Origin: Xanthomonas sp. 3793
GTDB taxonomy: Bacteria > Pseudomonadota > Gammaproteobacteria > Xanthomonadales > Xanthomonadaceae
Assembly: GCF_024806835.1 (NCBI RefSeq)
Contig: NZ_JANTYU010000001.1
Location: 434,001 to 498,000, forward strand
DNA: 64,000 nt
Reading direction: 5' to 3'
Made by a program: the position numbers and the translations under genes. The notes below the pieces were generated by a model. It did no database searches. It saw only the letters and a program-made list of their open reading frames with translations, and was not told where the DNA came from. This document shows, piece by piece, positions 9,129 through 12,371 of the stretch; the stretch's first letter is position 1, and every line of letters starts with the position of its first letter.

Positions 9129-10310
9129 ATGTCCGTCTCGCATATCCGCACGACCTGCATCGCCGCTGCACTGCTCAGTCTTGTCAGCGCCAATGCGGCC
9201 GCACTCACCGGCACCGCCTCACGCCCGCAGCTCACCAGCAGCGAAGCAGGCAGCTATACGATCGCCAAGGCCCTGGCCAAGGCCGGGCCGCTCACGGCCT
9301 TGGTCACCGACAACTGGAACCCCACCGCCGGCGTCGCCTTGCTCAGCGCGGACTATGCAGTGGCCGCCGATGGCTCAACGCGCTATCGCACCGTGCAGTC
9401 GGCGGTCGATGCGGCCGTGGCAGCAGGCGGCAGCACGCGCCGCTACATCAGTATCAAGGCCGGCACCTATACCGAACTGGTGTGCGTGCCGACCAACGCG
9501 CCGCCGCTGACCCTGTTCGGGCTGGGCACCGACGCCACCGATACCGTCATCCGCTTCAACAACGCCAACCCGACGCCCAAGCCGGCTGGCACGGCAAGTC
9601 ACCCCTGTGCCAGCAATGCGTCGGCGACCACGGTGGGCACCTCCAACAGCGCGACCGTGACGGTGCGTGCAGCGGGCTTCCAGGCGCGCCACCTGCGCGT
9701 GCACAACAGCTATGTCGAAGGGACCTATCAGGACAACAACCAGTCGGCCGTCGCCCTGGCGGTGCGTGGCGACCAGGCCAGCTTCGAAGACGTGCTGGTG
9801 ACTGGCAATCAGGACACCTTGCTGATCAGTGCGACCAATGCCGCCAACGTGATTCGCGCCTATTTCAAGAACAGCACGATCGAAGGCGATGTCGACTTCA
9901 TCTTCGGATCGGGCATAGGCGTGTTCGACAACGCCCTGATCCGCTCGGCGGGTACGCGCCTGGGCAGCAGTCGCGGCGGCTATATCTTCGCGCCGAGCAC
10001 GCGCCCGGGCAGCAGCTATGGGTTCCTGGCGATCAACAGCCGCTTTGTCGCCGGCTCCGGTTCGCCCGACAACCAGACCTATCTGGGCCGCGCCTGGGAC
10101 GAAGGTGTCAGCAATCTGGGTGCTTACGTCAATGGCACCTCGCCCAATGGCCAGGTGACGGTGCGCGACTCCAGCCTGGGCAGCCATATCCGCAAGACCG
10201 CGCCCTGGAATGCCTCCACCGCCAGCCGCCCCTATTGCAGCAGCGGCTGCACCAATTCGGCAAACCGCTTTTACGAATACGGCAATACCGGGGCCGGGGC
10301 CGCCGACTGA
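9129..10310 (+). CDS. Secreted pectin methylesterase (carbohydrate esterase family 8)
   Basis: Protein of 393 residues with a signal peptide (MSVSHIRTTCIAAALLSLVS, cleavage near ANAAA). It should remove methyl groups from plant pectin, preparing it for polygalacturonase. CE8 signatures are present: the Gln-Asp catalytic region VTGNQDTLL, the second Asp in GDVDFIFGSG, and YLGRAWDE with the substrate-binding Arg/Trp. Export through Sec and then the type II secretion system is expected for such enzymes in Xanthomonas. An in-frame ATG at 9099 would add ten residues before the signal peptide; 9129 gives a more usual signal. It lies just upstream of a polygalacturonase gene. Confidence 0.92.
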   Translation: MSVSHIRTTCIAAALLSLVSANAAALTGTASRPQLTSSEAGSYTIAKALAKAGPLTALVTDNWNPTAGVALLSADYAVAADGSTRYRTVQSAVDAAVAAGGSTRRYISIKAGTYTELVCVPTNAPPLTLFGLGTDATDTVIRFNNANPTPKPAGTASHPCASNASATTVGTSNSATVTVRAAGFQARHLRVHNSYVEGTYQDNNQSAVALAVRGDQASFEDVLVTGNQDTLLISATNAANVIRAYFKNSTIEGDVDFIFGSGIGVFDNALIRSAGTRLGSSRGGYIFAPSTRPGSSYGFLAINSRFVAGSGSPDNQTYLGRAWDEGVSNLGAYVNGTSPNGQVTVRDSSLGSHIRKTAPWNASTASRPYCSSGCTNSANRFYEYGNTGAGAAD

Positions 10311-10378
10311 TCCATCGCCACGCCAGCTGCGTTTTTTGCAGCGTCCTGGCAGCAACATTTAGGCCTGTCACCGCTACT

Positions 10379-10425
10379 CATCGCCTGTTGGCAATCCGCG
10401 TGATGCGGTGTGCCAACAGGCGATG
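10379..10425. terminator. Perfect 15-bp stem-loop after the pectin esterase gene
   Basis: Arms 10379-10393 and 10411-10425 (CATCGCCTGTTGGCA and its complement) are perfect, with a smaller CCGC/GCGG stem inside the loop. It starts 69 bp after the stop. There is no long T tract, so it may be a terminator or mRNA 3' stabiliser. Confidence 0.55.
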
Positions 10426-10491
10426 GTGTTGACCGCCCATCCGCTTGCGCGATGGCAACGCGTTATCGAATTGGGCACTGCGTTGGGTGAC

Positions 10492-10553
10492 TTCGGGGAC
10501 GCGGCGTCGAGTTCGCCCCTCCGACGTCGGCCGCCCGTATGAGGCACCAGGCT
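10492..10553 (+). promoter_or_regulatory. PIP box plus -10 element (putative HrpX-dependent promoter)
   Basis: TTCGG at 10492-10496 and TTCGC at 10512-10516 are separated by exactly 15 bases, fitting TTCGB-N15-TTCGB. A YANNNT -10 element, CAGGCT, lies at 10548-10553, 31 bases after the second half-site, within the 30-32 range known for HrpX-controlled promoters. The polygalacturonase ATG is about 150 bp downstream in the same direction. Confidence 0.7.
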
Positions 10554-10700
10554 TGCCGCTCCCCTGCGCAATCGACATCGCAACATCGATACCTGCACTG
10601 CATGCCCGGCGTACCAGGCACGGTCATACGGCTGTCATGCAACGTATCGCCGCTGCGCGCAGATCGCACCGTCGCCACGCCCCATCGGAGCCCTCCCCCA

Positions 10701-12371
10701 ATGCAATCTCCTTTCGCCTTTCCCGCCATCGCAGCACTGACGCTCGCCGTGTTCGGCATGACAAGCTTGCAGGCCGGCGCAGCGCGGCCGCACGGGCAGG
10801 ATGTGCCCGACACTGCTCACAGCATCTCCACCCGTTGGGGCGTGGTCCGGCAGCCGACCTTACCGACCCATATCTGCGCCACGCTAAAAGCCGCACTGAT
10901 GCCAGTGGCCGGTTCGTTGGACACGCTGGATCAGGACCCGGCCCACTCCAAGCGCGATACCGCGCGCCTGCAGGCAGCCATCGACGATTGCCCTGCCGGC
11001 AGCGCAGTGCATCTTGTCCCCGGCGATGCCGGCGAATCCGGCATGCTCAGCGGGCCGTTGACCATCAAGAGCGGGGTCACGCTATGGATCGATCGCGGGG
11101 TCACCTTGTTCGGCTCGCGCAATCCGCAGGACTACGACAACGGCCTGGGCACCTGCGGCACCGCCACCAGCGACAAGGCCAAGTCGTGTAGTCCACTGAT
11201 CCATCTCTCCGACACCGCCAACAGCGCCATTGTCGGCGCCGGCAAGATCGACGGCCGTGGCGGCAGCACGCTCACTGCCGGGCCCAATGCCGGCAAGGCC
11301 AGCTGGTGGGATCTTGCCTATCTCAACGTCACCCAGGGCTTGAGCCAGCACGTGCCGCGCCTGCTGCAGATCGACGACAGCACCGACGTCACCTTGTACG
11401 ACATCACCCTGGAGAACTCGCCCAATTTCCATGTCATCAGCGACAACGTGGTGGGCCTGACCGCGTGGGGCATCAAGATTCTGGCGCCCAGCCTGGTCTA
11501 TTCGCGTCCCGGCTACCGCTGCCCGGCAGGCAGTACCCCGGACGTCAATCCGCACGCGACCTGCTTCACGCCGGAGACTGCCAAGAACACCGATGGCTTC
11601 GACCCGGGCCAGTCGAAGAATGTGCTGCTGGCGTACTCGTATATCGGCACCGGCGATGACGGTGTGGCGATCAAGGCGCACGCCAACAGCAAGCGCAGCA
11701 TCGCCTCGGAAAACATGCTGTTCGCCTACAACCAGTTCTACTACACCCATGGTTTTTCGCTGGGCAGCGAAACCGATTCGGGCATGCGCCATATCGCCGT
11801 GCGTGGCTTGAGCATCGACGGCTTCAACGCCAACGATGTGCAGCGCGATCCCTACTCGGCCAATGGCCTGCGCATCAAGTCCGATGCCTCCCGCGGCGGC
11901 CAGGTCTACGACATCAGCTTCGAGAACATCTGCATGCGCGGGGTTGCGCGGCCGCTGGTGTTCGATGCCAACTACGCCAACCCGGCGACCCGCGACAAGC
12001 CCCCGCAGTTCAGCGGCATTTCGCTCAGTCACGTGCATTCGCTGGGTTCGACCACCTTGGGTGGCGGCGAATTGAGTTTCTATGGGTATCGCGACGCCGG
12101 CACTACCCGGCCGATCACCATCTCGCTGGACAATGTCGTGCTGGAAGGCGGCAAGGTCAGCTTCGCGCAGCCGCATTTCGGCGGGCCTGCGAGCAACCCG
12201 GGCGCGACGCACTTCACCTTCAAGGGCGGGCCGGTGAGCTTTTACGATCAGCTGACCGAATCGGTGCCCAACGATGTGCAGCTACAAGGCAAACCCGGCC
12301 CGGGCACGCCACTGCAATGCAATGACGCCTTCATTGCCTACCACTCGGTGCTGCCGGATTCGCCGATTTGA
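10701..12371 (+). CDS. Secreted polygalacturonase (glycoside hydrolase family 28)
   Basis: Protein of 556 residues with a signal peptide (MQSPFAFPAIAALTLAVFGM, then SLQAGA). It should hydrolyse demethylated pectin outside the cell. GH28 catalytic motifs are visible in order: NTDGFDPG, GTGDDGVAIK (the Asp pair), THGFSLGSET (here THG where GHG is usual) and RIKSD. Before them are right-handed beta-helix repeats such as GKIDGRG and LLQIDDSTDVTLYDITLENSPNFHV. A region near residues 265-290 with two cysteines looks like a surface loop insertion. The PIP box upstream suggests co-regulation with type III secretion through HrpX. Confidence 0.93.
   Translation: MQSPFAFPAIAALTLAVFGMTSLQAGAARPHGQDVPDTAHSISTRWGVVRQPTLPTHICATLKAALMPVAGSLDTLDQDPAHSKRDTARLQAAIDDCPAGSAVHLVPGDAGESGMLSGPLTIKSGVTLWIDRGVTLFGSRNPQDYDNGLGTCGTATSDKAKSCSPLIHLSDTANSAIVGAGKIDGRGGSTLTAGPNAGKASWWDLAYLNVTQGLSQHVPRLLQIDDSTDVTLYDITLENSPNFHVISDNVVGLTAWGIKILAPSLVYSRPGYRCPAGSTPDVNPHATCFTPETAKNTDGFDPGQSKNVLLAYSYIGTGDDGVAIKAHANSKRSIASENMLFAYNQFYYTHGFSLGSETDSGMRHIAVRGLSIDGFNANDVQRDPYSANGLRIKSDASRGGQVYDISFENICMRGVARPLVFDANYANPATRDKPPQFSGISLSHVHSLGSTTLGGGELSFYGYRDAGTTRPITISLDNVVLEGGKVSFAQPHFGGPASNPGATHFTFKGGPVSFYDQLTESVPNDVQLQGKPGPGTPLQCNDAFIAYHSVLPDSPI

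Follow-up and report, generated by a model that had tools for sequence, protein, structure and literature searches.

Described HrpX-dependent polygalacturonase promoters

Plant-inducible promoter (PIP) boxes and their associated -10 elements have been described (PMC7831014, PMC3285194, PMC3534599), the latter printed as YANNNT in PMC3285194 and as TYNNNT in PMC4468381. The polygalacturonase gene pairs pghAxc/pghBxc and pehA/pehD have been given as HrpG/HrpX targets (PMC7036363, PMC5003339). Briefly, in Jacobs et al. 2015 (PMC4468381) a PIP box and -10 element precede pehD in most Group 2 xanthomonads, with the box approximately 210-250 bp before the start codon, while the Group 1 homologues are given without a PIP box. 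Table 1 of the same paper lists one deviation from the box for X. campestris PehD and an X. oryzae gene without a PIP box. In X. cannabis lacking a type III secretion system pehD was up-regulated 49-fold with hrpX and 426-fold with HrpG*, and HrpX dependence of orthologues is credited there to Wang 2008 and Guo 2011. Two polygalacturonase genes of X. campestris pv. raphani, pglA1 and pglA2, were up-regulated 90-fold and 14-fold under HrpG*, and both are marked "yes" for a PIP box (PMC4652430).

The locus described here is the orthologue of this known promoter in one more species, and the link between HrpX and pectinases is already known. It resembles the Group 2 pehD (PghBxc, PglA) promoter in the orthologous gene, the box type, the spaced -10 element, the range of distances to the start codon and its presence in strains without a Hrp type III system. 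It differs in that the species is another one and in that the -10 element CAGGCT fits YANNNT and not TYNNNT.

Promoter elements upstream of pehD

The window, the whole 64,000-nucleotide stretch of Xanthomonas sp. 3793 DNA that was analysed, contained the following features at the locus.

9129..10310, plus strand: pectinesterase gene upstream of pehD (PF01095, E 2.2e-29), lacking its own PIP box
10492..10516, plus strand: PIP box TTCGG-N15-TTCGC, predicted HrpX site (exact match, found in 29/29 orthologues with invariant half-site columns)
10502..10504, plus strand: central CGG at spacer positions 6-8 of the box
10548..10553, plus strand: -10-like element CAGGCT (YANNNT), 31 bases 3' of the box (A10549 and T10553 invariant in 29)
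10687..10690, plus strand: likely ribosome-binding site GGAG, 10 nt before the ATG
10701..12371, plus strand: pehD-like GH28 polygalacturonase gene, 556 aa (PF00295, E 1.4e-39; 29 orthologues in the genus)

A sequence-only reading of the window had proposed a perfect PIP box with a correctly spaced -10 element before a polygalacturonase gene, and both were confirmed. The two TTCGB direct repeats, TTCGG (10492-10496) and TTCGC (10512-10516), are separated by 15 bases on the plus strand, and CAGGCT falls within the 30-32 bases expected for HrpX targets. The box starts 209 bp before the ATG at 10701, which fits the distance published for pehD, and together with the GH28 domain this identifies the downstream gene as pehD (PghBxc/PglA). 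A longer in-frame ORF begins at 10539, upstream of the -10 element, which makes this position an improbable start codon; the ATG at 10701 is preceded by the GGAG. A consensus scan of 10250-10720 detected neither a sigma-70 promoter nor a T-tract terminator.

Chance expectation of the motif

The exact TTCGB-N15-TTCGB pattern occurred once in the window, so that the pectinesterase gene indeed has no box of its own as had been proposed, and dinucleotide shuffles of the window gave a mean of 1.36 matches (sd 1.05) with at least one match in 76 of 100 shuffles. Across the 5.2 Mb genome there were 83 matches (42+41) compared to 95 (48+47) for a reversed control pattern, and the bare motif therefore carries no weight, in agreement with the earlier estimate of about one chance match per 64 kb. 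A chance PIP-like string without function would be compatible with these counts. The spaced -10 element is more restrictive since YANNNT occupied a random three-offset slot at 4.1% (plus strand) and 3.7% (minus strand) of window positions, giving approximately 0.05 expected combinations of box and spaced -10 per window where one was observed. Downstream of the 83 genomic matches YANNNT peaked at offsets 30-32 (11/83), while the other 39 three-base offset bins averaged 3.1 and never exceeded 7.

The 83-site survey was rejected as a list of regulon members, as most of the eleven sites with a -10 element lie in long stop-free frames and resemble chance matches. By reading of the loci, pehA, pehD and a lipase-like gene are plausible members. 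The lipase-like gene (L119, G000:C2:115622-116796, PF03583) has a PIP box with CATAGT at a spacing of 31 and is a candidate HrpX target. A further site (L155, G000:C4:677257-678431) has a PIP box with TAGACT, also at a spacing of 31. It lies in a region that lacks long open frames, 89 nt ahead of an ORF of 125 aa with no Pfam match, and we leave its membership undecided.

Conservation of the promoter among orthologues

Sixty-one genomes were searched for relatives of the locus, thirty-four of them within the genus including that of the window. A pehD orthologue was found at approximately 73% identity or more in 29 of the 34 and was not found in G001, G010, G011, G018 and G033, with G018 retaining a 23-residue remnant. 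An exact PIP box was located upstream of all 29 orthologues, at a distance of 179-230 nt for the 27 loci where the start could be placed (those of L013 and L036 are doubtful). YANNNT was kept in 27/29, at a spacing of 31 in twenty-six and of 32 in L037, while L030 and L034 have an imperfect element with A in the first place. Conservation of both half-sites had been suggested as a check on the box and gave this positive outcome.

An alignment of 330 nt upstream (29 distinct rows) contained 14 invariant columns, all inside the box or the -10 element: the half-sites account for nine, the spacer for three (10502, 10503 and 10509) and the -10 element for two (A10549 and T10553), the latter being the only invariant columns among the 305 outside the box. 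Removal of L013 and L036 added one invariant column, 10529, and removal of the most divergent L037 as well brought the number to 22, including GAG at 10688-10690 of the likely ribosome-binding site. The relatives are not independent of one another, and invariant and variable columns were contrasted within the identical set of sequences. Twenty-three named loci with full-length matches agreed with these results and were not added to the counts since most or all represent genomes already counted.

Whatever the motif frequencies allow, the retention of both half-sites in 29/29 orthologues amid mostly variable flanking sequence rejects a chance match in practice, and we regard that explanation as extremely improbable.

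On the plus strand upstream of the pehD promoter a further PIP match was present in eight of the 23 named loci, seven of them 2.27-2.46 kb upstream of pehD and that of L050 at -644. By reading, these eight near-identical strings fall within the coding region of the gene on the far side of the esterase.

The pectinesterase gene and the intergenic gap

A rival reading is that the box is real but pehD is also, or mainly, transcribed by read-through from the pectinesterase gene with HrpX as one input only. An esterase stretch was located within 600 nt upstream in 19 of the 29 loci (own included; short or partial in L022, L028 and L031), and no T-tract terminator was found between the genes. However, the gap measures 390 nt here, and its 180-nt stretch 10311-10490 has a stronger predicted fold than shuffled sequences (z -3.69) without a T tract. 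The ten loci without an esterase stretch within 600 nt have also kept the box. On balance we consider read-through as an additional or main route an unlikely explanation, with a small though appreciable probability.

The gap also contains a perfect 14-bp inverted repeat, 10380-10393 pairing with 10411-10424, which may act as an attenuator or terminator or may be a repeat element.

Among 198 genomes drawn from the family, eight matched pehD at E 1e-60 or better. Of these, G222 alone comes from outside the genus, with a homologue of 66% identity over residues 6-556. In this genome no HrpX orthologue was found apart from an E 4e-4 match to the DNA-binding end, HrpB4 was not found, and no PIP match was present on either strand in 2.7 kb around the start of the homologue. 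The joint lack of HrpX and box is consistent with an HrpX promoter in the genus. The esterase match in G222 stops 108 nt before the pehD homologue (L181), an arrangement that would favour read-through, compared to 283-505 nt in the 19 genus loci, of which L013 has a doubtful start. The promoter may thus have been gained together with the longer gap, which as a comparison with one outgroup genome is suggestive only.

The central CGG and the pehA paralogue

The genome encodes a pehA-like gene (C3:359145-360536) with its own PIP box approximately 142 nt before the ATG and a -10 element of TAGAGT. A box with YANNNT at a spacing of 30 was present in all 30 pehA loci that were fetched, while a 31st genome (G027) carries the gene in pieces and was left out. 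The pehA (PghAxc) promoter is thus similar to that of pehD in the gene type, the PIP box, the spaced -10 and a central CGG, but differs in the spacing of 30 rather than 31 and in the -10 sequence (TAGAGT in 29/30, TAGATT in one). Its own box and -10 element in 30/30 loci were counted in favour of HrpX control of pehD.

The CGG at spacer positions 6-8 was present in 28/29 pehD boxes and 29/30 pehA boxes. Hrp-region boxes of relatives bearing a type III system share the overall pattern TTCGB-N15-TTCGB-N30-32-YANNNT but differ in lacking the triplet, which was found in none of 57 sites with a PIP box and -10 element (38 distinct; CG in 2/57) sampled from 12 stretches in 10 of the 24 relatives that have the system. 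It was also absent from the nine other such sites of the genome itself and occurred there in six of the other 81 PIP matches taken as background. A general role of the CGG as an HrpX feature is ruled out by the 0/57 and 0/9 counts.

These patterns raise the possibility that another regulator overlapping the PIP box, with the CGG as its mark, is the main one to act on the site and HrpX is secondary. The invariant spacer columns and the presence of the CGG in pehA boxes but not in the hrp-region boxes are in line with this, as is the account in PMC4468381 that pehA of X. campestris is additionally controlled by Clp and RpfF. The same source reports that HrpX alone induces pehD strongly in X. cannabis, and the invariant half-sites with the A and T of the -10 element follow the HrpX pattern. 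Hrp-region boxes likewise keep operon-specific spacers, so a conserved spacer need not mean a second factor, and the CGG could reflect a common origin of the pehD and pehA promoters, a second factor or coincidence. We therefore regard control mainly by another regulator as quite improbable.

As a speculative and rather doubtful joint proposal, the pehD and pehA boxes may form a sub-class of HrpX sites, TTCGB-N5-CGG-N7-TTCGB, in which the CGG would be under selection, read by HrpX or a second factor, and would set an enzyme arm of the regulon apart from the injection-system arm, the pehD box having arrived with the wider gap and been kept where the injection system is absent. The shared CGG was not found in the literature searched, and it may well have been described in print.

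HrpX and type III secretion genes

A 476-aa AraC-type protein encoded in the same genome (G000:C2:355329-356756) was taken as HrpX. An OmpR-type gene adjoins it and an HSP90-like gene lies on the other side, and a nearby ORF was assigned as radA from ORF reading alone. We take the AraC-type and OmpR-type proteins to be HrpX and an HrpG-like regulator, names that draw on length and neighbours, since an NCBIfam scan returned no model naming HrpX. HrpX was found in 33 of the 34 genus genomes, with G027 carrying it in two pieces, and was not found in G002, where the assembly is 81% complete and the PIP box is kept. The hrpG-hrpX pair has been located between radA and hsp70 (PMC4468381).

HrpB4 and HrpB2 were found in the identical 24 of 34 genus genomes. 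Neither was found in the genome of the window; the HrpB2 search of that genome alone lacked a positive control and hence was repeated over the 61 genomes, where it matched in 24. Judged from these two families, the Hrp type III system appears to be absent from this genome while HrpX is present. A one-contig genome of the same species (G120) has identical HrpX, box and -10 sequences, and HrpB4 was not found in it. Ten genus genomes lacked both HrpB4 and HrpB2, and nine of them had HrpX, the exception being the incomplete G002. Eight of the ten have pehD, with the box and YANNNT kept in 8/8 and HrpX in 7/8 (again all except G002). Four PIP matches at G000:C4:293-296 kb were rejected as a hrp cluster from ORF reading alone.

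The earlier proposal that the pectinase is placed under the type III secretion regulator is supported as to the regulator, while the type III genes HrpB4 and HrpB2 were not found here. HrpX control of the polygalacturonase gene agrees with the box in 29/29 and the -10 element in 27/29 orthologues and with the published induction of an orthologue (PMC4468381). Against it were counted the imperfect YANNNT of L030 and L034, the box in G002 although no HrpX was found, and the mismatch of CAGGCT with the TYNNNT of PMC4468381. On this evidence we consider it very probable that 10492-10553 is an HrpX-activated promoter of pehD acting in a HrpG to HrpX pathway, with a product probably exported by type II secretion; two T2SSG pseudopilin genes of the type II system were detected in the genome. 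HrpG would raise HrpX, which as an AraC family protein would bind both TTCGB direct repeats, set 20 bp apart, and recruit RNA polymerase to the weak -10 element 31 bases downstream, so that transcription would start near 10560 and yield a GH28 polygalacturonase. For this organism we infer HrpX binding, the start site, the secretion route and induction in the plant.

Significance

The locus offers a natural example of a pectinase gene that would have stayed under HrpX control in genomes where Hrp type III genes were not detected. The footprint among orthologues marks the bases of the HrpX promoter that were kept, namely TTCGG and TTCG in the half-sites plus the A and T of the -10 element, and supports YANNNT as the -10 pattern, to which the central CGG of the pectinase boxes is a small addition.
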